Of a stretch of 33,044 nt of DNA, positions 7,501 to 33,044 are shown piece after piece. The stretch is from NCBI GenBank assembly GCA_014529615.1, contig JAABVD010000003.1:1-33044 (forward strand), written 5' to 3'. Made by a program: the position numbers and the translations under genes. Within the stretch, counting starts at the first letter, position 1. Each line of letters opens with the position of its first letter. This stretch comes from Opitutia bacterium. Lineage in GTDB: Bacteria > Verrucomicrobiota > Verrucomicrobiia > Opitutales > UBA2995. The notes below the pieces were generated by a model that saw nothing but the letters and a program-made list of their open reading frames with translations, did not search any database and was not told where the DNA came from.

Positions 7501-7513
7501 AAGGGAAGGTATC

Positions 7514-9891: not shown

Positions 9892-9948
9892 TTCGCAAGA
9901 TTACTTTTTGAATTTAAATAACCAAGTAAGTATCGGAAGATCAATGTT

Positions 9949-11430: not shown

Positions 11431-11462
11431 AACCTGCCTAACCTGTAGTTTAACTGGAAGCT

Positions 11463-16615: not shown

Positions 16616-19600
16616 ATGAGCAGTAATTATAAAAATCAAGGCCGTCTAATAGAAATACTGATTTTGTTCACACTGGTGGGCGCATTGGGACTGCTTGCCC
16701 AGGAAGGTGACGAGGAAACTTATGAGTTAAGTCCGTTTGTGGTGGAAAGTTCAGACCAAGAAGGATACACTGCGACGAGCACTTTGGCGGGAACGCGCAT
16801 CAAGACGGATTTGGCTGACCTTGGATCGGCCATCTCCGTGGTCACGCAGGAGTTCCTGGAAGACACCGGGGCAACCGGTCTTGGAACTCTGCTGTCTTAC
16901 ACGACAAACACGGAGGTAGGTGGCGACCAGGGTAATTTTTCAGACGCCCGGGACATTGCCAACAGCCGCTATTATCAAAAAGAAGAACGAACGGATCCTC
17001 AATTGAACACCCGCATACGTGGACTTGGCCGAGCTGATTTGACCCGCGGATTATTCCTGACGGATATCGGGTTTGATTCCTACAATACAGAACGTGTGAC
17101 TGTGAGTCGTGGCCCAAACTCACTCTTATTCGGCATCGGTAGTCCGGGAGGGGTGATCGATGCCAGCTTGAAACAAGCGGTGCACAATGCCAACTTTGGT
17201 GAAGTAAAAGTCAGGGTGGATAATTACGGCACATTCCGGTCGGAATTCGACGTGAATCGAACCCTAGTCGAGGATCGTCTGGCTATCCGGGTCGCTGCAT
17301 TGCGCAATGATGCACGTTACAAACAGGAAGAGGCCTGGACGCGGGACGAACGGATTTATGCCAACCTGGAACTGGTTCTTTTCAAAAATGAAAACAGCGA
17401 CTTCCTTGGCCCAACAAGGATTCGGGCAAATGGGGAAGTTGGAACCACTAGGGAATCTCCTATTGAAGTGATACCACCGACGGTGGCTTATAGCGGATGG
17501 TTTGAGCCAGTTCCATCATCCATCCAGCAATTTACCGGGATAGCCCCTCCAGCGAATGTCGTTCATCCCAATGAGGGAGGGACATGGGAATTCCAGGAAA
17601 CTTACAATCCCCTTCCTTTTTCCAGAAACGAAAGCCAAATCAACACCAACGTGCATCCGGCATATTTTCGCTTTATTGCTGCACATTTTAACGATCCCAA
17701 TGCGACAACTGCAGACGTTGGGACCGGAGACGGACTTCAGGGGTACCAGGGCGTTATTACATGGAGGACGAATCTGGATACACTGGACAGTACAGGTCTG
17801 GCCGGCACTCCCGGCGCAATCGCCGCCTTTGGACCCGATGCTCCGGGGGATACGCCGGTGAATCGGACTTCGGAGTTCCATGCCCAGAGTCCGTTCGGGG
17901 AACCGTTTGCCATCGGATTTGCTGCGCCGACCCTACGGAATAGGGACGTATTTGATTACCGTAATCATATCTACTCGGGCGGAATCGATAATCTCGAACG
18001 GAAATTCGACGCCTACAGTGTGACCTTGGAACAAGGTTTCTTCGACAACAAACTGGCCGTTGAGGCGACATTTGACAAACAGCATTATGAGACGACTCAG
18101 GACTTCTTCTTTCAGGGTGGACGCGACCAGAGTACATCCGGGACCTATGACATCAATGTCTCGATTGCCGAGTACTTGCAAAACGGTCAACCGAACCCAA
18201 ACCTGGGCCGGGCCTACTCGCGGGTGGCGATTCCCGAGATCGATTTCAAGGAGCTGGACCGGGAAACCGTCCGTTTAACCATGTTCGGCGAGCTTGATTT
18301 CTCGGAAAAGGAGAACTGGTTGCAACATCTGGGACGGCATCGTTTCACCGCCCTGTATAATGATCACACCTTTGACAGGCGTTCTTCCCAATGGGAACAC
18401 GCCTGGGTAAGCAATGATTTTAATGTTATTGATGCCGTCCAAGGCAATACGCTGACGGCTAATCGCCGGGGCTTTACTACCGTGGTATGGACCAGCGACT
18501 CCCTGTTGGGATTGTCCTCAATCAACGATGTTCGCCTGAACAAGGTTAACATACCCCATCCTCAACCGGGTGATTCTTATCAGGTACTTTACGCAGACAC
18601 CAGTTCCGCTAGCGCAGAGCGCACCTTGCGAACGGGAACGGTCACGAACGAGCGTTTTCTTGATGAAATGAATATTTCACAGACCCAAATCGAGGCCAAA
18701 GCATTTGCCTGGCAAAGTTACTTTTTGGATAATCACATTGTCGGGTTACTAGGTTATCGTGAGGACGATACCGTCAGCTTTAACCGCGCTATCGTTGGGG
18801 AAGTCGGATTTGAAGAACGGGATGAAGAGGGCCGTTGGAAGCCTGAATTTACAAGGCTATCGAATACCCCTGCCCTGGAAGAGTCCGGTGACACCCGGAC
18901 CTGGAGTGTTGTTGGACGTTATCCCGAAGCGTTATTGGGTGATCTCCCAGGAAACCTTGATTTGCAGGTACATTATGCCGAATCAGAAAACTTCAATCCA
19001 ATAGGATTCAGGAATGATGCATTGGGACGGCCCTTAGGGCAACCGACCGCAACCACCAAGGAATATGGTTTTTTGATCAAGACCATTGATAATAAACTCA
19101 ATTTTAAGGTAAATTGGTTCGAAACGAGCCTGAATGATCAAAATGCGCCCCCGAGGGTGAACACGCTTTCCTATGCCCTAAATCGAATCAATGATTACCG
19201 GGATGCCGAAATCAATCTTGAACTTCCCTTCTCCGATCAGTTTGAGACCATCAGTGGAGATCCGACCTCATTCCCGATTCAGGATTATGACACTTTCTAT
19301 TCTTCAATGCTTAATGCCATTCCGGCTGAACTGAGGGATATCTCCAACATCAGGCAAGTGGACGTAACTGGAGATGGTGTCTGGGATAGCATGGAAGCTG
19401 ACAGTGTTCAAAACCTGCGCTCAACCCAGGATCGGATCGCCAAGGGCGTCGAATTCGAAGTGGTCGCCAATCCAACCATCAACTGGCGCCTGATTCTGAA
19501 TGTCAGCCAACAGGAGACAATTAACAGCAATACGGCTTCCGTGATGGGACCCGTTGTGGAAGCATATACGGCCAATTTAAGAAGCAGCCGGTTGGGCGAG

Positions 19601-20098
19601 CTGAGAATGTCTGCCGGGGGTACGACCGTGTTGCGTCCGATCGAGGAACTCTGGTTATCCCAGAACGTTGCTGTACTTCGTGCCGCCACCGCATTGGATG
19701 ATACCGTCTCCAATGAACAACGCGAATGGCGTTTCAATGGCGTTACTTCCTATTCATTCACGGAAGGATGGCTGGATGGGTTGAACGTGGGCGGTTCTAT
19801 CCGCTGGGAGGACGAGGTGGCAACCGGTTATGTATTCGCACTTGATCCGGAAGCAGGAGTACCCATACCCCTGGTTGATCAGCCCCATATGAGTGATTCC
19901 CTCCTGCATGGTGACCTCTTTGCTTCCTACAGATGGAAGCTGACCGACAAAATCGACTGGAAAATCCAGTTAAACATCAGGAACGCCTTTGGGGATGACG
20001 ATGATATTCCGGTCAAGACAAATCCTGACGGGCAAGTAGCGGTGATCCGGATCCCGAATCCAAGAACGATTATGATCACCAACACCTTTTCCTTTTAA
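16616..20098 (+). CDS. TonB-dependent outer-membrane receptor 2
   Basis: This 1160-residue protein has a signal segment at residues about 10-29 (LIEILILFTLVGALGLLAQ). The Opitutae plug signature follows: YELSPFVVES, GYTATSTLAGTRIKTDLADLGS and VVTQEFLEDTGATG. A long barrel domain ends in the aromatic ITNTFSF. It shares the plug motif with the receptor at 3044 but differs in the barrel loops, which suggests a different ligand. GGAAA lies a short distance before the start. The sulfamidase-like sulfatase follows after 30 nt, so import and desulfation in module 2 are probably co-transcribed. The ligand is unknown. Confidence 0.93.
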   Translation: MSSNYKNQGRLIEILILFTLVGALGLLAQEGDEETYELSPFVVESSDQEGYTATSTLAGTRIKTDLADLGSAISVVTQEFLEDTGATGLGTLLSYTTNTEVGGDQGNFSDARDIANSRYYQKEERTDPQLNTRIRGLGRADLTRGLFLTDIGFDSYNTERVTVSRGPNSLLFGIGSPGGVIDASLKQAVHNANFGEVKVRVDNYGTFRSEFDVNRTLVEDRLAIRVAALRNDARYKQEEAWTRDERIYANLELVLFKNENSDFLGPTRIRANGEVGTTRESPIEVIPPTVAYSGWFEPVPSSIQQFTGIAPPANVVHPNEGGTWEFQETYNPLPFSRNESQINTNVHPAYFRFIAAHFNDPNATTADVGTGDGLQGYQGVITWRTNLDTLDSTGLAGTPGAIAAFGPDAPGDTPVNRTSEFHAQSPFGEPFAIGFAAPTLRNRDVFDYRNHIYSGGIDNLERKFDAYSVTLEQGFFDNKLAVEATFDKQHYETTQDFFFQGGRDQSTSGTYDINVSIAEYLQNGQPNPNLGRAYSRVAIPEIDFKELDRETVRLTMFGELDFSEKENWLQHLGRHRFTALYNDHTFDRRSSQWEHAWVSNDFNVIDAVQGNTLTANRRGFTTVVWTSDSLLGLSSINDVRLNKVNIPHPQPGDSYQVLYADTSSASAERTLRTGTVTNERFLDEMNISQTQIEAKAFAWQSYFLDNHIVGLLGYREDDTVSFNRAIVGEVGFEERDEEGRWKPEFTRLSNTPALEESGDTRTWSVVGRYPEALLGDLPGNLDLQVHYAESENFNPIGFRNDALGRPLGQPTATTKEYGFLIKTIDNKLNFKVNWFETSLNDQNAPPRVNTLSYALNRINDYRDAEINLELPFSDQFETISGDPTSFPIQDYDTFYSSMLNAIPAELRDISNIRQVDVTGDGVWDSMEADSVQNLRSTQDRIAKGVEFEVVANPTINWRLILNVSQQETINSNTASVMGPVVEAYTANLRSSRLGELRMSAGGTTVLRPIEELWLSQNVAVLRAATALDDTVSNEQREWRFNGVTSYSFTEGWLDGLNVGGSIRWEDEVATGYVFALDPEAGVPIPLVDQPHMSDSLLHGDLFASYRWKLTDKIDWKIQLNIRNAFGDDDDIPVKTNPDGQVAVIRIPNPRTIMITNTFSF

Positions 20099-20128: not shown

Positions 20129-21595
20129 ATGAAGATTTTCCATTATGCACTTGTCGGAATCTTACTGGCTGCTGCCTCGGCAAACGGCGAAAACAATTCA
20201 ACCAACATTCTCCTGATCACCTCCGAGGATAACGGTCCGGAATTGAGTTGTTATGGTGAGCCCTACGTGAAGACCCCACACCTGGATAGATTGGCCCGGA
20301 ACGGAGTGCGATTCAATCGGGCCTTTGTAACCCAACCAGGATGCAGCCAGTCCCGATCCTCTATCCTCACGGGCTTGTATCCACATCAGAATGGCCAGAT
20401 CGGGCTGGCAACATGGGGGTTCCGGATGTATCGGGACGAGACCCCGAACATGATTCGCAGTTTAAAGGAGGTCGGCTATCGCACCGGGATTATCGGTAAG
20501 CTGCACATCAATCCGGCTTCCGCTTTCCCCTTTGATTTCAAGGAAATCCCGGCAGCCAATTTCGCTCGAAATAAACTCACCGGGTATGAGAAACGCGCTG
20601 GTGAATTTATCCGGGCATCAAAGGAACCGTTTTTTCTGATGGTAAACTATCCGGATGCGCACCGCCCATTCATTCCTCAGGTGGACAACATGCCAGAAAA
20701 TCCTTTGACCGTAGACGATGTCAAGCCCCTGGCCTATTTGGGAGGGGATCATCCAGAGCTGCGAAAGCAGACGGCCGATTACTATAGCTGTATGGAGCGT
20801 CTGGATACGCTGATCGGCAAGCTTCTTGATACCCTGAAAGAGAGCGGCAGGGCGGAAAATACGCTGGTTATCTATCTCGGTGACCACGGAGCGGACTTGC
20901 TCCGAGGCAAAAGGACACCCTACGAGGGGGGGCTTCGTGTGCCCTTGATTGTGTCATGGCCGGGCAAGGCAAAAGCGGGACAGGTCAGGCAGGAACTTGT
21001 TTCCATGGTAGATCTGTTTCCGACCGCTTTGGAGGTCTCGGGCGGCAAAGCCCCAAGTTCCCTGCCAGGCAGGTCGCTACTTCCGCTGCTAAAAGGGGAA
21101 ACACCCGACTGGCGTGAATACCTGTTTGCGGAATGGCACCTGCATTCCCCACTGAACTTTTACCCGCAACGCACGGTTCGCAACGACCGCTATAAGCTCA
21201 TCCATAACCTGATGCCTGGCACAGAGAATCCTGGTTATGATTGGACCATGGATGCATTTTTCCCGGAACTTGCCGACAGTATAATCGAAGGAGACGGGGC
21301 TGTTTCAGCCGCATACAAACGAATGAAACGCCCGCCGGAATTCGAGTTGTATGATTTGAGGCGCGATCCCTATGAGTTCAATGACCTCTCCGATGATAAG
21401 GACCATCGGCAAATTCTCAACAAGTTGAAGCGGGAACTCACCTTGTGGCAGAAGAGGACGAACGACCCGTTGCGTCATCCCGAACTCTTGGGGAAATTGA
21501 AAGCGGAGATCGAAGCCACTTTCGCGAACGGAGAACCCGAGAAGAGAGCGGACAGGACCTGGCATTATCCGGATTATCTTTCCACGGCTCCCTGA
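20129..21595 (+). CDS. Secreted sulfatase, sulfamidase (SGSH)-like, with atypical C-S-Q-S-R motif
   Basis: This 488-residue protein has a signal peptide (cleavage near residue 20). The opening NILLITSEDNGPELSCYG and the stretch ILTGLYPHQNGQIGL resemble N-sulfoglucosamine sulfohydrolases (human SGSH has LLTGLPQHQNGMYGL). YLGDHGADLLRGK and PYEGGLRVPLIVSWPG supply later active-site residues. The maturation motif is C72-S-Q-S-R76. Sulfatases usually have Pro or Ala at the middle position, so Gln is unusual and the efficiency of formylglycine formation is uncertain. The gene is 30 nt after TonB receptor 2 and 57 nt before a family B propeller. A 20-codon remnant of a second copy lies at 22986-23048. 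Sulfamidase activity would point to an N-sulfated amino sugar, but this is only a family-level guess. Confidence 0.85.
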   Translation: MKIFHYALVGILLAAASANGENNSTNILLITSEDNGPELSCYGEPYVKTPHLDRLARNGVRFNRAFVTQPGCSQSRSSILTGLYPHQNGQIGLATWGFRMYRDETPNMIRSLKEVGYRTGIIGKLHINPASAFPFDFKEIPAANFARNKLTGYEKRAGEFIRASKEPFFLMVNYPDAHRPFIPQVDNMPENPLTVDDVKPLAYLGGDHPELRKQTADYYSCMERLDTLIGKLLDTLKESGRAENTLVIYLGDHGADLLRGKRTPYEGGLRVPLIVSWPGKAKAGQVRQELVSMVDLFPTALEVSGGKAPSSLPGRSLLPLLKGETPDWREYLFAEWHLHSPLNFYPQRTVRNDRYKLIHNLMPGTENPGYDWTMDAFFPELADSIIEGDGAVSAAYKRMKRPPEFELYDLRRDPYEFNDLSDDKDHRQILNKLKRELTLWQKRTNDPLRHPELLGKLKAEIEATFANGEPEKRADRTWHYPDYLSTAP

Positions 21596-21652: not shown

Positions 21653-22960
21653 ATGAACCTCCTTACTAAATTAATTTCAGCCCTTCTGCCAATCTGCTCG
21701 TTGACCACAGGTATGACAGTTGCAGCGTCGCAACCAACCAAGATGCCGGTCGTCGAATGGACCGCTGGCGACACACCTGATTTTCGCTATCTGTTTCTGG
21801 ATAATGTAAAAATCACCCAATTGCTCTACGCCACTCCGGAGACCGGAACCTTCAATCTCCATGGTTTCCTTTATCACTACCAAGGCGTCCTATTCGCGTC
21901 CTGGGATAACCAGGCTCGGGATGAAAATACCTCCGGCCAGAATGGTGTCTTTCGTCTTTCGACCGACGAAGGAAAGACTTGGTCGGAGCAGAAGCTACTC
22001 TTCCCTTCGCTTGCCGACAAGGTCCCCGCCTCAGTAGCGAAAGTACCCAAACCGTTTCAAACCTCCCAAGGATTTGCCGAAATCGACGGTAGGCTTTACG
22101 CGGTAACCTGTGTCGACAGGGCTTTGAGAAAAAAGGTCTATCGTTTCAATGAAGTCTCACGGACCCGGATCGGATTCCTGGCCCGCGAGGTGCGTGCAGA
22201 CGGATCGCTTGGTGAAGTCTTCTGGTTGTCCGACACGGCCCCCGAACCGGAACTCGGTTACCCGACTCTTCCGGTCGGCGACCGCTCGCTTGTCGCCAAG
22301 TTCAAAGCCTATTACAGGGAGCCAGCCAACTTGCCCCAACTCCTCTTCCGACCGAGACAGTGGCCGGACTCGGATGATGAACACCGTATGACCGAGCCCA
22401 CCCAGCCTTGGCGCCTCGACAACGGGGCCTGGGTACGGCTCTACCGGAATCAGGGGACCATCCACGGGACCACCCGCGCCGAAATCGAAGCCTCCAGGCC
22501 CCGGCGGCACTACGCCTCGTTCTCCTTCGATGACGGGAAAACGTGGAGCGCGCCCACGCGTACCAATTTTCCCGATACCGGCGCACGGGCCAATTCAGGG
22601 CGATTGCCGGACGGCCAATACTACGTGATCAACAACCCCCTTCCCATGTCGGCCAGGCAGGGAGGCCGTACCATGCTTGCCATATCCTTATCTCGCGATG
22701 GTCTGAATTTCGATCGCATGGCAGTTATCAGATTCATCGCACCGCAACAGCGCTATGAAGGCATAGCAAAGGGAGCCAATGGATTCCAGTACCCACATTC
22801 GGTTGTTGTCGGGGAAAACCTTTGTGTGATTTATTCCGTGAACAAGGAAGACATGGAAGTGGCCCGAATTCCGCTGGCGGGACTCTCTTCGCTTGATCGA
22901 TCATCGCAAAGACCCGTCGCCCCTGAACACGACTACCATCGCCCGGGATCCCTCCCTTGA
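21653..22960 (+). CDS. Secreted beta-propeller (sialidase-superfamily), family B copy 1
   Basis: This 435-residue protein has an N-terminal signal (about residues 1-25). Asp-box-like motifs are STDEGKTW, SFDDGKTW and SRDGLNFDRM. Conserved blocks include HGFLYHYQGVLFASWDNQARDE in segments, YRFNEVSRTRIGFLARE, RPRRHYASF, PLPMSARQGGR and YPHSVVV...YSVNKEDMEVARIPL. The last block is typical of the end of sialidase-fold proteins. It is strongly similar to the proteins at 27914-29218 and 23071-23949, and different from family A. I cannot assign a substrate; the fold serves exo-sialidases, other glycosidases and some polysaccharide lyases. It lies 57 nt after the sulfamidase-like sulfatase. Secretion and context indicate action on the glycan or its oligosaccharides in the periplasm or outside. 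Confidence 0.82.
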   Translation: MNLLTKLISALLPICSLTTGMTVAASQPTKMPVVEWTAGDTPDFRYLFLDNVKITQLLYATPETGTFNLHGFLYHYQGVLFASWDNQARDENTSGQNGVFRLSTDEGKTWSEQKLLFPSLADKVPASVAKVPKPFQTSQGFAEIDGRLYAVTCVDRALRKKVYRFNEVSRTRIGFLAREVRADGSLGEVFWLSDTAPEPELGYPTLPVGDRSLVAKFKAYYREPANLPQLLFRPRQWPDSDDEHRMTEPTQPWRLDNGAWVRLYRNQGTIHGTTRAEIEASRPRRHYASFSFDDGKTWSAPTRTNFPDTGARANSGRLPDGQYYVINNPLPMSARQGGRTMLAISLSRDGLNFDRMAVIRFIAPQQRYEGIAKGANGFQYPHSVVVGENLCVIYSVNKEDMEVARIPLAGLSSLDRSSQRPVAPEHDYHRPGSLP

Positions 22961-23070: not shown

Positions 23071-23949
23071 ATGAAAATACAACAAATTACCAAAAGGACC
23101 CAGACCAAGCACTTTATTGCTAAACTCATCCTTGCCGTCCTTCTTATATTCCCTTCGACATCACAGGCAAACACTTCGACTGCCCGATCGACCGAGATGC
23201 CGATCGTCGAATGGACGGTTCGAGACGTTCCAGACTTTCGCTGGCATTTCCTTGAAAATGTGAAGACAAGAAAACTATGGCATGCGACTCCGGAGAAGGG
23301 AACTTTCAGTCACCACGGTTTCCTTGCTTATCACCGGGGAGTCTTGTTCGCGTGCTGGGACAGCCAGGCACGCGATGAAAACGTCTCCGGTCAACATGGC
23401 GTATTCACCTATTCGAACAATAAGGGGGAAACATGGGCGGATCCAAGACCGTTGTTCCCACCACTTGCCGACAAGGTTCCCATGTCTGAGACCAAAGAAC
23501 CGAAACCATTTCAAACCTCGCAAGGCTTTACCAAGATCGATGGTCGACTTTACGCACTTGCCATCGTTGACGAGGAATTGAAAAATGCCGGGCGATTGCC
23601 GGACGGCCAGGTCTATGTGATCAACAACCCCCTTCCGATGTCGTCCAGGCAGGGAGGCCGTTCGATGCTTGCCATCTCGTTATCCCGGGATGGTCTTAAT
23701 TTCGATCGGATGGCCGTCATCAAATTCATTGCACCACCGCAACGACATATGGGGAAAGCTTAGGGAATTGGATACCAGTAGCCGCATTCAATCCTCATTG
23801 GGGATTACCTTTGGGTGATCTATTCGGTGAACAAGGAAGACATGGAAGTGGCCCGAATTCCCCTGTTGGAGCTCTATTCCCTTGATAGATCCTCCCTCAG
23901 GTCCGTTGACCCTGAACCCGGTTATTTTTACCCTGCATCCATATCTTGA
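23071..23949 (+). pseudogene. Decayed family B propeller, copy 2
   Basis: It starts with an intact signal-like region and matches copies 1 and 3 to DGRLYALAIVDEELK. It then jumps to NAGRLPDGQVYVINN, an in-frame loss of about 154 codons relative to copy 3 (its residues 160-313). Two later nonsense codons follow: TAG at 23761-23763 (an AAG Lys in copy 3) and TAG at 23779-23781 (a TAT Tyr). The frame nevertheless continues recognisably through LWVIYSVNKEDMEVARIPL to TGA at 23947-23949. A 230-residue product could still be translated from 23071 to the first TAG, but it lacks the central blades, so it is very unlikely to fold as an enzyme. Confidence 0.9.
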
Positions 23950-24047: not shown

Positions 24048-25556
24048 ATGACCCTTATTGACTGGATTCTTGTCTTTACGTACGCGACTTCGACGATCGC
24101 GGTTGGCTGGTATTTTGGCAGAAAACAGAAAGACACAAAAGAGTATTTCATTGGATCGGGTAGCATGAATCCGGTTCTGATTGGCGTCTCTTTGTTCGCC
24201 ACGCTTCTGAGTACGATCAGCTATTTGGCGATTCCAGGAGAAGTGCTGGGAAAGGGCCCCGCCTATATGGCCGTCTACCTTTCCTATCCGTTCATATTCC
24301 TCACCCTGGCATTTGTGATTCTTCCGGTCTACATGAAGAATCGTGTCACAAGCGCCTACGAGTTGCTGGAACAACGCCTTGGACTGAGTGTTCGCATGCT
24401 GGGCGCGGCGATGTTTCTCACATTGAGATTGGTCTGGATGTCCTTGTTGATTTACATGACCGCCAAGGCCATTGCCATCATGATCGGTGCAGGAGATGAA
24501 ACGATTCCCTGGATCGTTATAGTAACCGCGATCTTTGCCATAACCTATACCTCTGTCGGAGGGCTTCGAGCCGTCGTCATTACCGACCTGATGCAATCCC
24601 TTCTTTTGTACGGCGGGGCATTAATCGTCATCGGAACGGTTACCTGGAAGCTGGGCGGCTTCGCCTGGTTTCCAACTGAATGGCAATCGGATGTCTGGGA
24701 CAAGCAACCATTGTTCAGTATTGATCCTTCAACGAGAGTAACCGTCGCAGGCTCCATGCTGTGGATTTTTCTGTTTCTCGTATGCACTTCCATGGGTGAT
24801 CAGGTTTCCGTCCAGCGTTTCATGTCGACAAAGGATGTCAGAGCTGCCCGTAAAGCCATCGCCATGCAATTGACTACAGCCTTCATTGTTGGATCGACAC
24901 TGGGTGTGGTCGGCTTGGCGCTCCTTGGATTCTTCCAGGTAATTCCAGATTTGTTGCCGGCAGATGGATCCATAAAATCTCAAGCCGATCAGCTATTTCC
25001 GCATTTCATCGCGGCCCAACTGCCACCGGTGGTAACGGGACTGGTGGTCTCTGGCCTTTTTGCAGCGGCTATGTCCAGCATCGACTCGGGTGTAAATTCG
25101 ATCACGGCTGTCGTGATGACCGACTTCCTCGACCGGTTTGGGCGGAAACCTCAGTCGGGAAAACAGCATCTGCGTGTGGCGCGCAGCCTGGCAATTGGAA
25201 TCGGTGTCATCGTTGTCTTAGTCAGTACGCTGATGAAGTATGTGCCGGGCAATTTCCTGGCAGTCACGAACAAGACGACCAATCTGCTCACCGGCCCCAT
25301 CGCACTGCTGTTTATTTTTGCACTCTTCGTGCCCTTCGCCAACGCGCCGGGCGTTTGGATCGCAGTCCTAGCCAGCATCGCAACCGCCGCACTTGCTGCT
25401 TTCTCCGGAGTCATATTTGGACCGGATCCGGTTACAGGTCTGGATCCGATCAGCTTTCAGTTGATTCTGCCCTCCGGCCTGATTGTGGGCCTGCTGGTCG
25501 GCATTGTAGCCTGCAAACTGTTTTCCTGGACTAAAAAAAGCCAAAAGTTTCATTAA
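24048..25556 (+). CDS. SSS-family sodium/solute symporter 2
   Basis: This 502-residue membrane protein has about 13 helices. It starts LIDWILVFTYATSTIAVGWYFGRK with YFIGSGSMNP. SLFATLLSTISYLAIPGE is the first core helix, then NRVTSAYELLEQRLGLSVRM, SVGGLRAVVITDLMQS and AAAMSSIDSGVNSITAVVMTDF as the late sodium-site segment. It is a clear paralogue of the symporter at 9949-11430, with matching motifs throughout, and probably imports a related but distinct monomer. It lies 98 nt after the decayed propeller and 58 nt before the HpaI-type aldolase. This suggests that its solute is converted to the aldolase substrate. The solute is unknown. Confidence 0.92.
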   Translation: MTLIDWILVFTYATSTIAVGWYFGRKQKDTKEYFIGSGSMNPVLIGVSLFATLLSTISYLAIPGEVLGKGPAYMAVYLSYPFIFLTLAFVILPVYMKNRVTSAYELLEQRLGLSVRMLGAAMFLTLRLVWMSLLIYMTAKAIAIMIGAGDETIPWIVIVTAIFAITYTSVGGLRAVVITDLMQSLLLYGGALIVIGTVTWKLGGFAWFPTEWQSDVWDKQPLFSIDPSTRVTVAGSMLWIFLFLVCTSMGDQVSVQRFMSTKDVRAARKAIAMQLTTAFIVGSTLGVVGLALLGFFQVIPDLLPADGSIKSQADQLFPHFIAAQLPPVVTGLVVSGLFAAAMSSIDSGVNSITAVVMTDFLDRFGRKPQSGKQHLRVARSLAIGIGVIVVLVSTLMKYVPGNFLAVTNKTTNLLTGPIALLFIFALFVPFANAPGVWIAVLASIATAALAAFSGVIFGPDPVTGLDPISFQLILPSGLIVGLLVGIVACKLFSWTKKSQKFH

Positions 25557-25614: not shown

Positions 25615-26376
25615 ATGAGAAAAAGCAAAGCTCTCGCCCGCATGCGCAAGGGTGAAATCATTCGCACGTGTGTGCTTGGACACTTCATACCCGCATTCGT
25701 CTGCCATGCAGCTCGAGCGGGTTACGATTGTATCTGGCTGGATCTGGAACATAGGCTTTTCTCACCTCGCGAGGTCCAGGCGCTCCTGGCGTTCTCGCAT
25801 CTTAATGATATCGACATCATGCTCCGACCCCCGACGCTAGAAAAGATTGGGTTGTATCGATACCTAGAGGACGGCGCCGCCGGATTGCTCGTTCCACAAG
25901 TGTCCACCGCCGAAATGGCGAAGAAGCTTGTCGACGCTATCAAGTTTCCCCCCTTAGGTGAGCGGGGAATTGACAACAGCGGATTGGACGCCGACTTCCA
26001 ATATCACGATCCGGATGAATTTGCGGCATGGGCGAATCGGGAAACATTCCTTTGCGTGCAGATCGAGACACCACTTGCCGTTCGCAATGTGGAGTCCATT
26101 GCCGCGGTCGAAGGAGTGGACATGATCTTCGTGGGACCCGCAGACTTGGGACTGCGTTTACGGCAGAGTGGCGAAATGACACTTGAGCAAGCCTGGGAAA
26201 CCGTGGCTGCCGCCTGCCAGAAGCACGGAGTCGCTTTCGGAGGCCCCACTCTATTGCCGGAGGATTTAAAACGCCGTGCACAACAGGGAGCGCAATTGCT
26301 GGTAGCCAGCGCAGAATTCAAAAGTTGGTCGAATGGATTGAAGGAGGATATCCGGAAGTTCGATGAAGCGACCTAA
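25615..26376 (+). CDS. HpcH/HpaI-family class II aldolase (2-keto-3-deoxy acid type)
   Basis: This 253-residue (beta/alpha)8 aldolase has its catalytic pair at H46 (WLDLEH) and R71 (IMLRPP). Its metal ligands are E151 (VQIET) and D177 (VGPADLG). These align to H45, R70, E149 and D175 of E. coli HpaI. FPPLGERG is the substrate loop. The family splits 2-keto-3-deoxy acids into pyruvate and an aldehyde, for example 2-keto-3-deoxy-L-rhamnonate to pyruvate and L-lactaldehyde, or ketodeoxyglucarate to pyruvate and tartronate semialdehyde. The aldehyde dehydrogenase starts 24 nt downstream, which fits disposal of the aldehyde. The exact substrate cannot be read by eye. Confidence 0.9.
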   Translation: MRKSKALARMRKGEIIRTCVLGHFIPAFVCHAARAGYDCIWLDLEHRLFSPREVQALLAFSHLNDIDIMLRPPTLEKIGLYRYLEDGAAGLLVPQVSTAEMAKKLVDAIKFPPLGERGIDNSGLDADFQYHDPDEFAAWANRETFLCVQIETPLAVRNVESIAAVEGVDMIFVGPADLGLRLRQSGEMTLEQAWETVAAACQKHGVAFGGPTLLPEDLKRRAQQGAQLLVASAEFKSWSNGLKEDIRKFDEAT

Positions 26377-26385
26377 AAACATAAA

Positions 26386-26391
26386 AGGAGG
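26386..26391 (+). promoter_or_regulatory. Strong ribosome-binding site of the aldehyde dehydrogenase gene
   Basis: AGGAGG is a full Shine-Dalgarno match 9 nt before the ATG at 26401. Most other genes here have weak sites, so this enzyme may be made at a relatively high level. Confidence 0.75.
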
Positions 26392-26400
26392 AACCCAACC

Positions 26401-27837
26401 ATGAAGATGATTATTGGTGGACAAAAGGTCGAAGCGAGCGATGGTGCGGTACAAGAAGTGGTTAATCCCGCCACCCATGCCGTGGTCGATACCGTTCCCA
26501 TGGCCACGAAAGAGGACATGGACCTGGCCCTATCCAACGCACGGAAGGGATTCAGCGCATGGTCTAAGATTCCTCTTCATAAAAGAATAGAGACCCTATA
26601 CGCCTTCGAACAGCTCTTTAAGGAAGCCAGGGAAGACTTCATCAGGCTGGGCATGCAGGAAATGGGAAAAACGAGGGCTCTGGCTGCAGGAGAAATCACT
26701 GTGGCCACGCTCCTGATCAGGAATTTCTGTGAAGCCGCGCGCTCACTGGGTGGTGAAACATTCGCACCGGGAAATCATCCTATTGTAGAAAAGGATCTGG
26801 TTCTAACCGTTAGAGAACCTTGGGGAGTTGTACTGTGTCTACTCCCGTTTAACAGCCCCATCTCGCTCTACGTTCAGAAAGCAATTCCTGCACTGCTGAT
26901 GGGCAATGCCGTGATAGTGAAACCCGCTTCCGATACCCCGCTCTGTAATATCATGATGACAGAGTTGTTGTTGAAAAGCGGTATTGAACCGGACGCTGTG
27001 CAAATTATCACCGGCAGCGGCTCCAAAGTCGGCAAATACATTGTGTCGAGCAAAGATATCGATGTGGTCAGTTTGACCGGCAGCACGGAAGTCGGCATTC
27101 AAATAGCCAAAGATTGTGCCGAGCATTTGCACCGGGTGTCATTGGAGTTGGGCGGAAATGACGCATTGATTATCCTGGAGGACGCGGACATGGATCTGGC
27201 AATCGATGAATCCTTTTGTGGACGTCACGTGCACGGAGGCCAGATATGCTGCGCCAGCAAACGCTTTATCGTGCAAAACTCAATCAGGGAGGAATTCACC
27301 AACCGGCTTCTGGAGAAAATTAAGGCCATCAAAGTCGGAGATCCGAATGACGAAAGCACGACCTTTGGACCGGTTAATTCCGAAAAAGCGGCAATTGATG
27401 TTGAGCGGCAAATTCAACATACCCTTTCACAGGGGGCACGCCTGCTGTTCGGCGGTAAACGTTTCAACCGTACCTATATTGAGCCGACGCTGCTGACAGA
27501 TGTTACACCCGATATGGATATCGCCCGGGATATGGAAATATTCGGTCCCGTATGGCCCATTATCGGCTTCGATACCATGGAAGAAGCCATTGATATAGCT
27601 AACAATTCCATCTATGGACTCTCCAGCGGCGTGATTACCCGCGATCAGGGGAAGGCAATGCAAATTGCACGAGCCCTGCAGGCAGGTTGCTGCGTATTCA
27701 ATGGAAGCGGCCTTTACCGCTCTGCTGACCAACCCTTCGGTGGTTACAAAATGAGCGGCATCGGACGCGAGGGCGGACGATTCACACTCGAGGAAATGAG
27801 CCAGCTGAAAACACTCGTATTCAAAAACCAATACTAA
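26401..27837 (+). CDS. NAD(P)-dependent aldehyde dehydrogenase
   Basis: This 478-residue ALDH-superfamily enzyme has N151 (LPFNSP), the KPAS cofactor segment near 174, and the GSTEVG nucleotide loop near 227. The general base is E249 (SLELGGND) and the catalytic Cys is C283 (GGQICCASKR). The C-terminal EIFGPV and KMSGIGREGG motifs are also present. It oxidises an aldehyde to the acid. The nearest functional types by length and motif are lactaldehyde, glycolaldehyde or succinate-semialdehyde dehydrogenases. It lies 24 nt after the HpaI-type aldolase, so the retro-aldol aldehyde is the likely substrate. The 76-nt gap to the next gene is modest. Lactaldehyde would be expected if the glycan holds a 6-deoxyhexose such as fucose or rhamnose; that is inference. 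Confidence 0.92.
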   Translation: MKMIIGGQKVEASDGAVQEVVNPATHAVVDTVPMATKEDMDLALSNARKGFSAWSKIPLHKRIETLYAFEQLFKEAREDFIRLGMQEMGKTRALAAGEITVATLLIRNFCEAARSLGGETFAPGNHPIVEKDLVLTVREPWGVVLCLLPFNSPISLYVQKAIPALLMGNAVIVKPASDTPLCNIMMTELLLKSGIEPDAVQIITGSGSKVGKYIVSSKDIDVVSLTGSTEVGIQIAKDCAEHLHRVSLELGGNDALIILEDADMDLAIDESFCGRHVHGGQICCASKRFIVQNSIREEFTNRLLEKIKAIKVGDPNDESTTFGPVNSEKAAIDVERQIQHTLSQGARLLFGGKRFNRTYIEPTLLTDVTPDMDIARDMEIFGPVWPIIGFDTMEEAIDIANNSIYGLSSGVITRDQGKAMQIARALQAGCCVFNGSGLYRSADQPFGGYKMSGIGREGGRFTLEEMSQLKTLVFKNQY

Positions 27838-27913
27838 TTCTTCCATTGGCGAAACTCGTCCAGGCAGGTGGCAACATTTTCCTGATATACCTTAACAACC
27901 AAAAGCACTCCCC

Positions 27914-29218
27914 ATGAACGTCATCGACAAACTCTCTCTTGCTTTCTCACTGATACTTCCGGTGACCGTGAGTATAACAGAGGCGGCTGCCCAACTGGCC
28001 AGAATGCCGGTGGTCGAATGGACGGTTAGGGATGCACCGGATTTTCGCTACCACTTTCTCGAAAACGTGAGGACAACAGAGCTTTGGTATGCAACCCCGG
28101 AGACCGGAACCTTTAGCCACCACGGTTTCCTCACTTATCACCAGGGAATCCTCTTCGCCTGCTGGGACAGCCAGGCCCGTGATGAAAACACCTCGGGCCA
28201 GCGCAGCATATTCCGGTATTCGAACGACGACGGAGAAACATGGTCCGATCCGAAGGTCTTGTTTCCGCCGCTTGCAGACAACGTGCCTGCTTCCGAGACG
28301 GAACAACCCAATCCTTTTCAGACCTCGCAGGGCTTTGCCAGGATTGAGGATCGACTCTACGCCGTCACCTGCGCCGACCGGGAGTTGGAAGAAAAGGTCT
28401 ATCGTTTTAATGAAGTATCGCGGGTCCGGATCGGATTCCTGGCCCGAGAGGTGCGAACGGATGGAACTCTCGGCGAAATATTCTGGTTGTCCGACACGGC
28501 CCCTGAACCGGAACCCGGTTATCCTGCGCGTCCTGCGGGAGATCCTTCGCTTGTTGACAAGATCAGCGCTTATTTTAAGGAGCCGGCCAACTTGCCTCAG
28601 CTCCTCTTCGGGCCAAGACAATACCCGGATTCAGATGATGAACACCGCATGAATGAACCGAGTCCACCATGGCAGCTCGCCGACGGCACCTGGGTGCGCT
28701 TCTATCGTGACGGCGGTAGCATCCACACCCAATCCCGCGCCGAGGTAGATGCCTCGCGGCCTCGACGAAATTACGTTTCCTTTTCCTTTGATGGGGGCAA
28801 CAAGTGGACGATCCCCACAAGAACCAATTTCCCGGATTCCGTCGCGCGGACCAATGCCGGAAAACTACCGGATGGCCAGGTTTACGTGATCAACAACATC
28901 CTGCCGATGACACCCCGTCAGGGCGGACGCTCTATGCTTGCCATCTCATTGTCCCGAGACGGTCTTAATTTCGATCGGATGGCCGTCATCAAATTCATAC
29001 CACCACCGCGACGATACGAAGGGAAATTCAAGGGTGCTGGCTACCAGTATCCACATTCGGTTGTGGTCAGAGATAACCTTTGGGTAATCTATTCAGTAAA
29101 CAAGGAGGACATGGAAGTAGTCCGAATTCCTCTGTCGGAGCTCTATTCCCTCGGCAGATCCTCCCTCAAATCCGTCGACCCTAAACCTGGTTATTTCAAT
29201 CCCGCGTCCATCCCTTGA
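27914..29218 (+). CDS. Secreted beta-propeller (sialidase-superfamily), family B copy 3
   Basis: This 434-residue paralogue of the protein at 21653-22960 has an N-terminal signal (about residues 1-26). Asp-box-like motifs are SNDDGETW (103-110), SFDGGNKW and SRDGLNFDRM. Conserved blocks are SHHGFL (68-73), CWDSQARDE, PFQTSQGFARI, VYRFNEVSRVRIGFLARE (162-179) and RPRRNYVSF. Conserved His, Tyr, Arg and Asp residues in these blocks are candidates for the active site. It sits between the aldehyde dehydrogenase and the enoyl-CoA hydratase, an odd place for a secreted glycan enzyme, and is separated from both by about 70-76 nt. The function is unassigned: a sialidase-like hydrolase or a propeller lyase are the leading options. 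Confidence 0.83.
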   Translation: MNVIDKLSLAFSLILPVTVSITEAAAQLARMPVVEWTVRDAPDFRYHFLENVRTTELWYATPETGTFSHHGFLTYHQGILFACWDSQARDENTSGQRSIFRYSNDDGETWSDPKVLFPPLADNVPASETEQPNPFQTSQGFARIEDRLYAVTCADRELEEKVYRFNEVSRVRIGFLAREVRTDGTLGEIFWLSDTAPEPEPGYPARPAGDPSLVDKISAYFKEPANLPQLLFGPRQYPDSDDEHRMNEPSPPWQLADGTWVRFYRDGGSIHTQSRAEVDASRPRRNYVSFSFDGGNKWTIPTRTNFPDSVARTNAGKLPDGQVYVINNILPMTPRQGGRSMLAISLSRDGLNFDRMAVIKFIPPPRRYEGKFKGAGYQYPHSVVVRDNLWVIYSVNKEDMEVVRIPLSELYSLGRSSLKSVDPKPGYFNPASIP

Positions 29219-29239
29219 ACGGACGCTGGAGGGGTAAAC

Positions 29240-29255
29240 ACGAAAGTAATTTCGT
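29240..29255. repeat. Small hairpin in the intergenic gap
   Basis: ACGAAA pairs with TTTCGT around a GTAA loop (6-bp stem, 4-nt loop). It lies 21 nt after the propeller stop codon, with no T-run. It may be an mRNA-processing or stability element. Confidence 0.3.
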
Positions 29256-29287
29256 ATCCACCTATTCACTACAACGACATTCTACCA

Positions 29288-30103
29288 ATGACAAAAGACT
29301 CTACTGAACAAGACACGGACCCATCCCAAATGGTAACACTCGAGAGGAGGCAAGACGGGGTGGCTATTCTTACCCTTAACCGTCCTCCCTTGAATCTTTT
29401 TTCTCTGGAGATGACGCGGGTGTTTGACCAACGGTTGCAGGAGATCGCGAACGACGATTCCATCCGGGCGGTCGTTCTAACCGGCTCGGGCGATCGAGCG
29501 TTCGGCGCCGGTTCTGACATCAAGGAGTTCCCGGGGTTAATCGAGACCGGAAAGGTGATCGAGTCCAAGCTCCGCTACGAAAACGAGGTCTTCAATCGCG
29601 TTGAGGATTTACCCCAGCCGATTATCGCCGCGATGAGGGGCGTCGCCCTGGGCGGTGGATTCGAGCTGGCGTTGTGCTGCGACTTTCGTATCGGCGCCGA
29701 CGACATGAAGATCGGGCTCCCGGAGATCAAACTGGGCGTCTACCCGGGCGCCGCCCTGATCCGTTTACCCCGTCTGATCGGCGAGTCGCGCGCCAAGGAG
29801 TTGATGTTCCTCGGCGAGTTCATCTCCGCCAAGGAGGCTGCCCAATGGGGCTTGATCAACCGGTTGGCGCCGACCGAAGAGGTCCTCAGCACGGCGATCG
29901 GCTTTGCGGTCGAACTGGTGAATCGCCCGGCCCGGGCGATCCAGATCATGAAGAAGGGCTTGCGCGACATCGAAAACCAATCGCGTGACGAAGCGGTGCG
30001 GATCACCCTCGACATGAGCGAAGCCGTCTTCGCCACTGAGGATGCCAAGGAAGGCGTCGACGCTTTTTTCAACAAAAGAGCTCCAGAGTACAAACACCGT
30101 TAA
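29288..30103 (+). CDS. Enoyl-CoA hydratase/isomerase (crotonase) family protein
   Basis: This 271-residue crotonase-fold protein has the oxyanion-hole segments FGAGSDIKEF (72-81) and GVALGGGFELALC. The two glutamates needed for hydratase action are present, E126 (GGFELAL) and E146 (GLPEIKLGVYPGAA). It should add or remove water on an acyl-CoA, although the family also performs isomerisation and C-C cleavage. It is followed after 19 nt by a CoA-transferase, giving a plausible activation-plus-hydration pair. Sampled lines within it are 62-68% GC, against about 53% in the propeller before it, which suggests a separate origin. The acyl substrate is unknown. Confidence 0.9.
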   Translation: MTKDSTEQDTDPSQMVTLERRQDGVAILTLNRPPLNLFSLEMTRVFDQRLQEIANDDSIRAVVLTGSGDRAFGAGSDIKEFPGLIETGKVIESKLRYENEVFNRVEDLPQPIIAAMRGVALGGGFELALCCDFRIGADDMKIGLPEIKLGVYPGAALIRLPRLIGESRAKELMFLGEFISAKEAAQWGLINRLAPTEEVLSTAIGFAVELVNRPARAIQIMKKGLRDIENQSRDEAVRITLDMSEAVFATEDAKEGVDAFFNKRAPEYKHR

Positions 30104-30110
30104 TTACAGA

Positions 30111-30115
30111 AAGGA
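30111..30115 (+). promoter_or_regulatory. Ribosome-binding site that sets the CoA-transferase start
   Basis: AAGGA at 30111-30115 lies 7 nt before the ATG at 30123. It supports that start over an in-frame ATG at 30042, which would overlap the hydratase gene by 62 nt and lacks family similarity in its first 27 residues. Confidence 0.7.
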
Positions 30116-30122
30116 CGCAAAG

Positions 30123-31322
30123 ATGCTACTCAAAGGGATGAAGGTTATTAGTTTCTGCCACTACCTGCATGGACCGGCGGCAACGCAGTATCTGGCAGAC
30201 ATGGGGGCCGACGTTATCAAGATCGAACCACCCGGTGGACCGCTCGAGCGCAAGTGGTCGGGTGGCGATTCCTTTGTCGATGGCGTAAGCAGCTTCTTCC
30301 TTTCCGCCAACAGAAACAAGCGCAGCCTTGCCATGAACCTGAAGCATCCGGATTCCAGGGAAGTCATTCACCGCATCATCAAGCAGTCGCATGTCCTGGT
30401 GGAAAACTTTCGCCCCGGCGTATTGGATCGGCTTGGCTATGGATTGGAGGAAGTGCGCAAGATCCGTCACGATATCATTTACGTTTCGGCCACTGGCTAT
30501 GGTTCATCAGGGCCAATGAAGGATGCACCCGGGCAGGACATGCTCGCTCAGGCGCGCAGTGGCATGATTGCAACCATGGGCGACTACGGGGCGCGACCGG
30601 TCCCGGCAGGCAACGCCCTTATCGATCAGCATGGTTCAACCCTCATAGCGATGGGAATTGCGGCGGCTTATGCAAAACAGCTTCAAACCGGTGAGGGCAC
30701 GCATATCGAGGCAAATCTTTTGAATGCAGCCCTGGATTTGCAGACCGAGCCGCTTACATCCTTCCTGAGCCGGCCGGATCTTACGAGCGAAGTGTTCAAG
30801 CGGGATCCCCACCTGGCGACCTGGTATCATCCGGCGCCCTACGGAATTTATCAGATGGCCGACTGCTTTGTGGCCATTTCGATGAACAACACCGCCGGAT
30901 CATTGGCAGAAATCCTCAATAACAAAGTGCTAAGGGAACTATCTGAAAAAGATCTGCTCGAGGAACGGGATGCGTTTGCCCATGAGCTGGCAAAATCGTT
31001 AAAGGAATTGCCCCTGTCGGACATGGCCGAAAAATTTGACCAAAAAGGCATCTGGTACGCACGGGTACAGGATTACAGTGACCTGCGCGTCGATCCTCAA
31101 GTCGAAGCAAACCAAATGCTGCGGGAAGTGCCCATTAAGCAATCAAAGGCCACCTTGATCAACCATCCTTTGCGATACGATGAAAAGGTCCCCGAACTTA
31201 GGTACATTGCCCTCCGCTGTGGCCAGGATGGCAGGGATATACTCAAGGAGCTGAACTTCACAGCAGATCAAATCGAGGAATACTTCTCCAAGGGAGTATT
31301 GTATGAGGAGCCTGAGGTATAA
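30123..31322 (+). CDS. CaiB/BaiF-family (class III) CoA-transferase
   Basis: This 399-residue protein opens with the family signature LLKGMKVISFCHYLHGPAATQYLADMGADVIKIEPPGG (in segments). ANRNKRSLAMNLK and VENFRPGVLDRLG follow. Asp139 lies in DAPGQDMLAQARSG, where class III enzymes carry the aspartate that forms the acyl anhydride. These enzymes move CoA between carboxylic acids (formyl, carnitine, benzylsuccinate types) or act as alpha-methylacyl-CoA racemases. The hydratase is 19 nt upstream and the GH88 gene 54 nt downstream, so it is part of the operon. A carboxylate made by the aldehyde dehydrogenase would be a logical acceptor. The donor and acceptor are not shown by the sequence. Confidence 0.9.
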   Translation: MLLKGMKVISFCHYLHGPAATQYLADMGADVIKIEPPGGPLERKWSGGDSFVDGVSSFFLSANRNKRSLAMNLKHPDSREVIHRIIKQSHVLVENFRPGVLDRLGYGLEEVRKIRHDIIYVSATGYGSSGPMKDAPGQDMLAQARSGMIATMGDYGARPVPAGNALIDQHGSTLIAMGIAAAYAKQLQTGEGTHIEANLLNAALDLQTEPLTSFLSRPDLTSEVFKRDPHLATWYHPAPYGIYQMADCFVAISMNNTAGSLAEILNNKVLRELSEKDLLEERDAFAHELAKSLKELPLSDMAEKFDQKGIWYARVQDYSDLRVDPQVEANQMLREVPIKQSKATLINHPLRYDEKVPELRYIALRCGQDGRDILKELNFTADQIEEYFSKGVLYEEPEV

Positions 31323-31362
31323 GGAATGTCCGATACCGATAAAAGAATGGATCATACAGGGG

Positions 31363-31368
31363 AAGGAG
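31363..31368 (+). promoter_or_regulatory. Ribosome-binding site that sets the GH88 start
   Basis: AAGGAG lies 8 nt before the ATG at 31377. The alternative in-frame ATG at 31326 adds 17 residues, but its only purine-rich stretch (AAGG) is immediately next to the ATG, too close to work well. Confidence 0.75.
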
Positions 31369-31376
31369 AACAACAG

Positions 31377-32507
31377 ATGAAGATGAATCCGGCGGAAGAT
31401 AACAGTAATATTCTCGACAGGGCTTTGGAGTTGGGTATCGCCAAATGCCTGCGCGATGCAGACCGCTTGCCCGCCTTTCCACATGTGACGAAAGACGGTG
31501 ATTGGTTGCTCAGTGAACACGCGCGCTGGACGGGTGGCTTCTTTGTAGGAATGCTGTGGCTTGCGGGAGCGCTGCGCGTGGATCCGGCCATCCTGAAAAC
31601 AGCGCGATCCTGGGCCATGCGCCTCGCTCCGCGGGCGATGGACTGCTCGACTCACGACATGGGTTTCCTTTTCGAGCCCAGTTGTGTGCGGGGTCATAAC
31701 ATCCAGGCCGACGAGCAACTCAGGTCCCTGGCGATCTCGGCGGGCCGGTCCCTCGCATCTCGCTTTGTTCCAAAAGGTAAATACATTCCAGCCTGGGATC
31801 CGTCCGAAGGACAGGAGTACCTGGCGCTGGCGATTGTCGATACGGTCATGAATCTGCCTATCGTCTGTTGGGCGGCAAACGAGACCGGAGATAACCGCAT
31901 GCATGAAAGCGCCGTACAGACGGCCGCGACAATCCGCGAACAGCACATCCGCCCGGATGGCGCGACTTACCATGTGGTCGATCATGATCCGGAAACGGGC
32001 GAGGTAACCCACAGAGGCACCCACCAGGGCGCGCACGATGATTCCTGCTGGACCCGGGGTCAGGCCTGGACCCTCTATGGATTTACCCGTATGGGAGTTA
32101 TTCTTGAGTCGGAGCAGATGATGGCTACGGGACGAAAGACAGCAGATTACTTCCTCGCCCAATTGGGAGAGAAGACCATCCCGCCCTGGGACTTCGACCG
32201 GAACGATGCCAATGAACCGGTGGATTCAGCTGCCGGTGCGATTGCGGCCACTGGACTGATTGAACTGGGCCGCAGGACCGGAGAGGAGGATTACACCCAG
32301 GCTGGTGAGCGAATGGTCCATGGTTTGATCGATACCTGTATCGATTTTGATCATCCGGATAAACCGGGTTTACTGATGCACGGAACCGTGGATTACCCAC
32401 GCCGTTCCGGGGTGGATGAATCGATTATGTACGGCGACCATTATTTCATGGAAGCCCTCGTAAAGCTGCGCCGACCCGAGCTTTGGGATATCCTTGGATG
32501 TTGCTGA
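31377..32507 (+). CDS. GH88 unsaturated glucuronyl hydrolase
   Basis: From ATG 31377 it has 376 residues, matching the roughly 377 of Bacillus sp. GL1 UGL. D94 in STHDMGFLFEPS and D155 in IVDTVMNLPIVCWAANETGD correspond by motif to the catalytic Asp88 and Asp149 of that enzyme. Other features are the DDSCWTRGQAW active-site strip and GVDESIMYGDHYFMEALVKL at the end. It hydrates the 4,5-double bond of unsaturated uronic acids left by polysaccharide lyases, freeing 4-deoxy-5-keto-uronate from glycosaminoglycan-like or other uronate-containing oligosaccharides. No signal peptide is visible, so it should act in the cytoplasm. It is 54 nt after the CoA-transferase. Its presence is the strongest indication that the target glycan contains uronic acid. 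No lyase gene is recognisable in the window. Confidence 0.93.
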   Translation: MKMNPAEDNSNILDRALELGIAKCLRDADRLPAFPHVTKDGDWLLSEHARWTGGFFVGMLWLAGALRVDPAILKTARSWAMRLAPRAMDCSTHDMGFLFEPSCVRGHNIQADEQLRSLAISAGRSLASRFVPKGKYIPAWDPSEGQEYLALAIVDTVMNLPIVCWAANETGDNRMHESAVQTAATIREQHIRPDGATYHVVDHDPETGEVTHRGTHQGAHDDSCWTRGQAWTLYGFTRMGVILESEQMMATGRKTADYFLAQLGEKTIPPWDFDRNDANEPVDSAAGAIAATGLIELGRRTGEEDYTQAGERMVHGLIDTCIDFDHPDKPGLLMHGTVDYPRRSGVDESIMYGDHYFMEALVKLRRPELWDILGCC

Positions 32508-32559: not shown

Positions 32560-33044
32560 ATGTCCAAGCAACCCAGTATTCTTCTTATCATGGCAGACCA
32601 GGTGAATCCGGCTTTCCTGCCGGCCTATGGCCACCCGGTCGTAAAAATGCCCAACCTAGACACATTAGCCGATGAAGGGGTGGTTTTTGACACGGTTTAT
32701 TGCACCAATCCCATTTGTGCACCGTCACGCTTCTCAATGTTGACCGGAAGAATGGCTTCGGAAATGGGGATATTCGATCACCAATGCGAAATGCCAGCCT
32801 CTGCACCGACCCTAATGCACTATCTTCGCCACCTCGGCTACCATACCGCGTTGTCCGGTAAAATGCATTTTCTCGGGCCGGATCAGCTTCATGGATACGA
32901 AGAGCGGCTAACAACGGACATTTATCCCTCTGATTTCGGATGGGGTCCCGACTGGCGGGCTGGCACCCCGGAAATCCCCTGGGCGCCAACCGGGATCAGC
33001 CCGCGCACAGTTCTGGAGGCCGGTCCATGCTCAAGAAGTATGCA
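32560..33044 (+). CDS. Sulfatase, choline-sulfatase (BetC) type, cut by window end
   Basis: The first 161 codons are present and the frame runs off the right edge. It opens SILLIMADQVNPAFLPAYG with D13 of the metal site. C53-A-P-S-R57 is the formylglycine motif, followed by GKMHFLGPDQLHGYEERL and TTDIYPSDFGWGPDW. The GPDQLHG..ERLTTDIYP stretch is characteristic of the choline-sulfatase branch. There is no signal peptide, so it would be cytoplasmic. Within a glycan operon it may act on a sulfated sugar instead of choline-O-sulfate; both are possible. It follows the GH88 gene by 52 nt. Confidence 0.88.
   Translation, partial: MSKQPSILLIMADQVNPAFLPAYGHPVVKMPNLDTLADEGVVFDTVYCTNPICAPSRFSMLTGRMASEMGIFDHQCEMPASAPTLMHYLRHLGYHTALSGKMHFLGPDQLHGYEERLTTDIYPSDFGWGPDWRAGTPEIPWAPTGISPRTVLEAGPCSRSM

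Follow-up and report, generated by a model that had tools for sequence, protein, structure and literature searches.

A glycan operon in Opitutales that places a crotonase and a class III CoA-transferase after an aldolase and an aldehyde dehydrogenase

Gene content of the locus

The breakdown of glycan sugars usually ends in free acids, phosphates or pyruvate. Here we describe an operon of an Opitutia bacterium (assembly GCA_014529615.1, contig JAABVD010000003.1) in which an HpaI-type pyruvate aldolase and an aldehyde dehydrogenase (ALDH) are followed by a crotonase and a class III coenzyme A (CoA)-transferase. The window analysed, 33,044 nucleotides long, is the entire contig C11 of a 3.4-Mb draft genome (G000) that is 91% complete, and the genes of interest all lie on the plus strand, from position 20,129 to the contig end (Table 1). 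A first-pass annotation had picked out the four enzymes, with their key residues, as flanked by a propeller, a GH88 protein and a sulfatase. All four genes are indeed intact, match their Pfam families and encode the catalytic residues, and GH88 and a sulfatase do follow them; the propeller, however, lies inside the set, in the gap between ALDH and crotonase, and the gene that precedes the aldolase encodes a sodium:solute symporter (SSF). By eye, signal peptides are present in the propellers and the upstream sulfatase, but not in GH88, the last sulfatase or the four central enzymes.

Table 1 Features of the window
Feature	Position	Strand	Remarks
TonB-receptor-like protein	2984-6250		1,088 residues, YELTPF motif, no Pfam match
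BNR-epimerase-DHDPS-SSF-sulfatase module	6325-13271
Sulfatase open reading frame (ORF)	13478-14794		About 30 N-terminal profile positions missing; probably broken gene or wrong start
GntR/LacI-type regulator of the locus	15305-16411	+	87% in G002
Putative TonB-dependent-receptor-like outer membrane protein	16616-20098	+	Motif-based
S1-type sulfatase, secreted	20129-21595	+	G579 homologue (57%) 3' of the operon
BNR propeller B, secreted	21653-22960	+	Weakly BT_1020/GH143-like; G579 homologue 76% identical, 5' of the symporter
Propeller remnant	23071-23763	+	230 residues; matches two separate parts of propellers B/C, middle missing
SSF sodium:solute symporter (SSF2)	24048-25556	+	Profile match; homologues paired with HpaI in many Planctomycetes and Verrucomicrobia
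HpaI-type class II pyruvate aldolase	25615-26376	+	Complete ORF, HpcH_HpaI (PF03328)
NAD(P)-type ALDH	26401-27837	+	Complete ORF, Aldedh
BNR propeller C, secreted	27914-29218	+	Between ALDH and crotonase; fold of BT_1020 Dha-hydrolase propeller and sialidases
Crotonase, enoyl-CoA hydratase type	29288-30103	+	Complete ORF, ECH_1; allele diverged from G002
Class III CoA-transferase	30123-31322	+	Complete ORF; true start near 30123 (MLLKGMKV)
GH88 unsaturated uronyl hydrolase	31326-32507	+	No signal peptide seen; cytoplasmic
Choline-sulfatase-like sulfatase, cytoplasmic	32560-33042	+	Cut by contig end; choline clamp lost

A rare operon under purifying selection

The gene order from symporter to terminal sulfatase recurs, at 86% DNA identity, in the single-contig genome of another genus of the same family (G002). 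In a genome from another family (G579), propeller B, the symporter, HpaI, ALDH, crotonase, CoA-transferase, GH88, the choline-sulfatase-like sulfatase and the counterpart of the S1-type sulfatase form one tightly packed run, with 57–76% protein identity to the window over the run and 65–75% from the symporter to the terminal sulfatase. Propeller C is missing there between ALDH and crotonase, which are directly adjacent. The order symporter-HpaI-ALDH-crotonase-CoA-transferase-GH88-sulfatase is therefore present in three genomes of two families, and its recurrence in G002, assembled as one contig, and in a second family rules out chance or an assembly artefact. The first-pass annotation had named a lack of conserved synteny among relatives as grounds for refutation, and the synteny is there.

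With orthologues defined by 70% or more identity, none was found beyond G002 and G579 in overlapping samples of 53 relatives and 286 class, 373 order and 358 phylum genomes. A contig scan with the CoA-transferase alone gave no match; the synteny emerged from genome searches instead. Between G000 and G002, most operon genes have a dS of 0.36–0.52 and a dN/dS of 0.06–0.16, which, together with the gene order that recurs in G002 and G579, indicates a genuine operon that is rare and under purifying selection. The rpoB gene of the window genome is 76% identical in DNA to that of G002 (94% to that of a same-genus genome), whereas the operon genes are mostly 85–95% identical to those of G002, so the cluster was probably exchanged between genera. 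We regard the locus as a genuine and rare glycan operon, probably exchanged horizontally, that includes a branch for a CoA-linked acid; its enzyme set is well supported.

Exactly across the crotonase gene (29,379–30,079), DNA identity to G002 drops to 61–77% and dS is saturated. Despite this divergence, dN/dS is 0.06 and both glutamates are kept. One lineage exchanged its crotonase for a diverged one of the same kind inside an otherwise collinear operon, which argues that the gene is needed.

Elsewhere in the window, the BNR-epimerase-DHDPS-SSF-sulfatase module has 92–99% protein identity to G002 and a dS of 0.05–0.20, a more recent exchange than the rest, and the two halves of the locus stand in reversed order in G002. 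A sialic acid reading of this DHDPS/AGE module is not established, as its DHDPS protein scores far under the NanA cut-offs.

Enzymes and propellers of the operon

The aldolase matches HpcH_HpaI with 95 bits (cut-off 25), and H46, R71, Q149, E151 and D177 are invariant across 12 homologues. It would share with the HpaI, GarL and RhmA pathways the metal-dependent cleavage of a 4-hydroxy-2-oxo acid to pyruvate and an aldehyde, and it likewise has a dehydrogenase adjoining, but it falls below every NCBIfam equivalog cut-off (HpaI 101.8 against 368.8 bits, GarL 85.7 against 406.75, RhmA 80.5 against 441) and, unlike them, is followed by CoA enzymes. The known HpaI substrate is a C7 2-oxo-diacid, of which the acid Dha is a trihydroxy analogue. 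ALDH (Aldedh, 489 bits) contains the ELGG and GQICC motifs; it is nearest to lactaldehyde, betaine-aldehyde and succinate-semialdehyde dehydrogenases, under every equivalog cut-off shown.

Among 80 compared loci (labelled L; for example, L154, L155, L162 and L214), SSF and HpaI genes stand with SDR, M14 aspartoacylase-like, threonine-synthase-like, FAD oxidoreductase and MlrC-like genes, in what appears to be a catabolic cluster across Planctomycetes and Verrucomicrobia. ALDH, crotonase and CoA-transferase neighbours are absent at HpaI homologues of 41–54% identity in the class sample and of 51–76% at the 80 named loci, so the aldolase alone is no marker of the pathway. A plasmid search gave no HpaI match.

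The crotonase (ECH_1, 202.8 bits) has its catalytic glutamates in GGGFELA and GLPEIKL, both conserved across the three orthologues, and is nearest to ordinary short-chain enoyl-CoA hydratases, with 34% identity to CaiD. The CoA-transferase matches CoA_transf_3 (PF02515) with 284 bits and has the aspartate column common to YfdE, Frc and CaiB. Its nearest relatives are oxalate, succinate-glutarate and mesaconate transferases (YfdE-type 163 bits, succinate-glutarate 162 bits); it is far from CaiB (NF002914), at 22% identity and 78.9 bits (79.7 for the G579 orthologue) against a cut-off of 413. These affinities are consistent with a small diacid substrate.

Within this taxonomic order and outside it, further crotonase/CoA-transferase pairs lie beside SDR, FAH hydrolase, GH88, DHDPS, sugar ABC transporter and glycerate kinase genes; since these are sugar-type clusters, the CoA theme may be wider. 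On plasmids, CoA-transferases of 39–52% identity occur in mixed contexts and crotonases of 37–45% in ordinary acyl-CoA contexts. A second, distant pair with an adjoining regulator is found in the window genome itself (L031, contig C30) and in a congener (L029 in G001), and CoA-transferase clusters at L032, L089 and L240, some with a crotonase, lie beside a solute-binding-protein-like protein seemingly without a signal peptide.

GH88 scores 31.3 bits against a cut-off of 26.6, matches an unsaturated glucuronyl hydrolase (1vd5, E 2e-52), and has the conserved aspartate pair, one in HDxGF and the second in an xxDxxxNLP stretch. The terminal sulfatase, truncated in the window and 523 residues long in G002, passes the TIGR03417 choline-sulfatase cut-off of 433 bits in both full copies (G002 618, G579 598). 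Choline-sulfatase holds choline with a GW-X13-WYHN hairpin that includes His145, and has a Leu499/Asp500 gate (PMC9063841). In the orthologues Trp129 is kept, but APTG stands in place of WYHN in every one of the three, and the two full copies have Thr at both gate positions. Judging from these residues, the name choline-sulfatase should not be used.

Propeller C exceeds the gathering score of PF24067 (BT_1020/GH143), yet weakly (39.0 against 27 bits), and propeller B is borderline (26.6–27.1 bits), whereas true GH143 proteins score 260–350 bits. The AlphaFold model of propeller C (mean pLDDT 70.6) has as its best PDB fold match residues 32–410 of BT_1020 (Z 30.3, 329 residues, rmsd 3.3), followed mostly by sialidases and KDNases (Z 23–26); 2-oxo-3-deoxy (ulosonic) acids are the substrates of most of the listed enzymes that fold in this way. 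BT_1020, the GH143 Dha-hydrolase of rhamnogalacturonan-II degradation, keeps a Tyr-Glu nucleophile pair (PMC6811678). In a 10-sequence alignment that includes true GH143 proteins, Y379 is the sole invariant tyrosine and E248 is nearly invariant, which makes them candidates for this pair at the level of sequence. In contrast to BT_1020, the operon propeller has no GH142 domain and belongs to a sulfated-glycan operon. Its modelled fold points to a 3-deoxy-ulosonic acid, an option absent from the first-pass annotation. Sialidase-like BNR_2 domains are also encoded next to HpaI in other Opitutales and Planctomycetes (L212, L213 and L214), either immediately upstream of it or in the gap between SSF2 and HpaI.

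True GH143 genes of the same taxonomic order were examined in 13 stretches, 10 of them of 20 kb. In 8 of the 10 (L130, L132–L138), GH143 stands in a cassette with Fe-ADH, a DHDPS aldolase, a DUF1537 kinase and PdxA, and SSF is present in 7 of these 8; DHDPS aldolase, DUF1537 kinase and PdxA are found in none of the 80 control loci. Retro-aldol cleavage of Dha followed by reduction would, on stereochemical derivation, give D-threonate, a known substrate of DUF1537/PdxA-type enzymes. The cassette content suggests that this order splits Dha by a pyruvate aldolase and then processes the four-carbon aldehyde acid, and we predict a reductive Dha pathway through D-threonate. The window operon shares with these cassettes a propeller, an SSF symporter, a pyruvate aldolase and enzymes for an aldehyde acid, but has HpaI for DHDPS, oxidation for reduction, and CoA enzymes for the kinase route. 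We found no description of a Dha catabolic route in the literature. In the walls of Tetraselmis, Dha is found alongside Kdo and GalA (PMC7693365).

A putative CoA-dependent end to the breakdown of acidic sugars

The first-pass annotation had proposed retro-aldol cleavage, oxidation to an acid, CoA transfer and then (de)hydration for a deoxy or branched sugar acid. The parts fit this sequence, the operon is conserved, and homologous pairs occur in other clusters with GH88 and pyruvate aldolases; the substrate is still inferred. Because of the fold of propeller C and the GH143 cassettes with their pyruvate aldolase, we tentatively favour, at less than even probability, a pathway for a 3-deoxy-ulosonic acid, with Dha as the best candidate, that ends in CoA transfer and dehydration by the crotonase. 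An ulosonic acid as the substrate class, with Dha foremost, is moderately supported, and the final dehydration is a testable proposal.

The acid would be released by the secreted sialidase-fold propellers and imported by the SSF symporter. HpaI would then cleave it to pyruvate and an aldehyde acid, which ALDH would oxidize to a 2,3-dihydroxy acid (tartrate from Dha, arabinonate from Kdo or glycerate from KDG). Rhamnose or fucose derivatives lead to lactate, which has no beta-hydroxyl. The CoA-transferase would convert the dihydroxy acid to its CoA thioester, and loss of the beta-hydroxyl through the crotonase would leave a 2-oxo acyl-CoA (oxaloacetyl-CoA in the case of Dha); the free 2-oxo acid would be regained as the transferase handed CoA to the next substrate. 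The neighbouring unsaturated, sulfated uronic acid would fall to GH88 and the cytoplasmic sulfatase. That Dha or a related ulosonic acid is indeed converted through tartrate (or its analogue) to oxaloacetate (or its analogue) by this CoA-dependent route, in place of Fe-S or enolase-type dehydratases, seems to us possible but rather unlikely.

Three known systems show parts of this scheme. In carnitine metabolism of Escherichia coli, CaiB and CaiD are likewise a class III CoA-transferase and a crotonase, which between them dehydrate a beta-hydroxy acid and recycle CoA, but the operon transferase is nearer to oxalate and dicarboxylate enzymes and stands in a sugar-polymer context. Deoxyribonate catabolism is proposed to pass through glyceryl-CoA, a sugar-acid CoA thioester handled by a CoA-transferase, but that thioester arises from beta-keto cleavage or thiolysis, with no crotonase dehydration (PMC6365646). 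Conversion of inositol to propionate in Anaerostipes uses a CoA-transferase and an enoyl-CoA hydratase after a sugar-type aldolase, but with a 3-oxoacid transferase acting on 3-oxopropionate and with acyl-CoA dehydrogenases, and without oxidation of an aldehyde to a dihydroxy acid (PMC8355322).

Several observations weigh against the route through a dihydroxyacyl-CoA. SSF2 and HpaI commonly occur as a pair where propellers are absent, in the company of SDR, M14 and threonine-synthase-like genes, so the substrate of the aldolase and symporter may be something else, and because the propellers match GH143 weakly in sequence, Dha is not established. Plasmid homologues of the CoA-transferase lie beside acyl-CoA dehydrogenase and MaoC genes as well as beside GH88 and DHDPS. 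We know of no crotonase that acts on 2,3-dihydroxyacyl-CoA, and catabolism through tartryl-CoA was not found in the literature searched, where the term occurs in a single, unrelated paper. The 3.4-Mb genome also contains 27 matches to the MR_MLE enolase superfamily, a very high number of sugar-acid dehydratase-like proteins; such a dehydratase could do the same without CoA, so the host does not obviously need the CoA route. The Fumerase profile gives one match per genome, probably the tricarboxylic acid cycle fumarase, with no bearing on tartrate dehydratase.

The main rival, which we also regard as doubtful, starts at the GH88 product: ALDH would oxidize 4-deoxy-5-keto-uronate to a keto-deoxy-aldarate, which a GarL-like HpaI would cleave to pyruvate and tartronate semialdehyde, bypassing KduI/KduD, and the CoA pair would finish this or another C3 product. 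Each of the three operons includes GH88, apparently a cytoplasmic enzyme, and KduI-family matches number none in G000 or G579 and one in G002, which leaves room for a start from an unsaturated uronic acid. In addition, the aldolase scores nearly equally to 2-dehydro-3-deoxyglucarate aldolase (91 bits) and HpaI (102), and a Bradyrhizobium plasmid carries CoA-transferase-GH88-DHDPS with a crotonase nearby. But this route offers the crotonase and CoA-transferase no obvious substrate and does not need the propellers, and the operon contains no recognized polysaccharide lyase.

It is distinctly unlikely that the CoA pair works independently of the aldolase branch, on an acyl substituent of the glycan (3-hydroxybutyrate or crotonate after de-esterification). 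Although 3-hydroxy acids are natural substrates of such a pair and the crotonase is closest to ordinary short-chain hydratases, the operon contains no esterase, amidase, thiolase or 3-hydroxyacyl-CoA dehydrogenase, and the adjacency of ALDH and crotonase in G579 links the CoA pair with the aldolase branch. Itaconate degradation also uses a CoA-transferase, a hydratase and a PF03328 lyase, but an order in which CoA transfer and hydration come first and the HpaI-family protein then acts as a beta-hydroxyacyl-CoA lyase is very unlikely: the protein does not fall in the CoA-lyase branch, its NCBIfam and PDB matches are all free-acid aldolases (HpaI, GarL, RhmA and macrophomate synthase), and its DxEH/R71 motif is kept, invariant in the 12 homologues. 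Least probable is the carnitine- or choline-type metabolism that the first-pass annotation had offered as its alternative, for although the sulfatase passes the choline-sulfatase profile, ALDH is near betaine-aldehyde dehydrogenase and the crotonase shares a third of its residues with CaiD, none of the three orthologues retains the choline clamp, the CaiB match is poor, and propellers, GH88 and sulfatases imply a glycan.

For the favoured ulosonic acid pathway, we found no described precedent for CoA attachment and water removal as the finishing step of sugar breakdown. If true, this would introduce a new final stage in the breakdown of acidic sugars and extend crotonases and class III CoA-transferases to substrates of a new class. 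It would also add a second, oxidative Dha branch beside the reductive threonate branch predicted from the GH143 loci; the cassettes at these loci provide a pathway open to testing for Dha, which occurs in plant rhamnogalacturonan-II and in marine algal walls.

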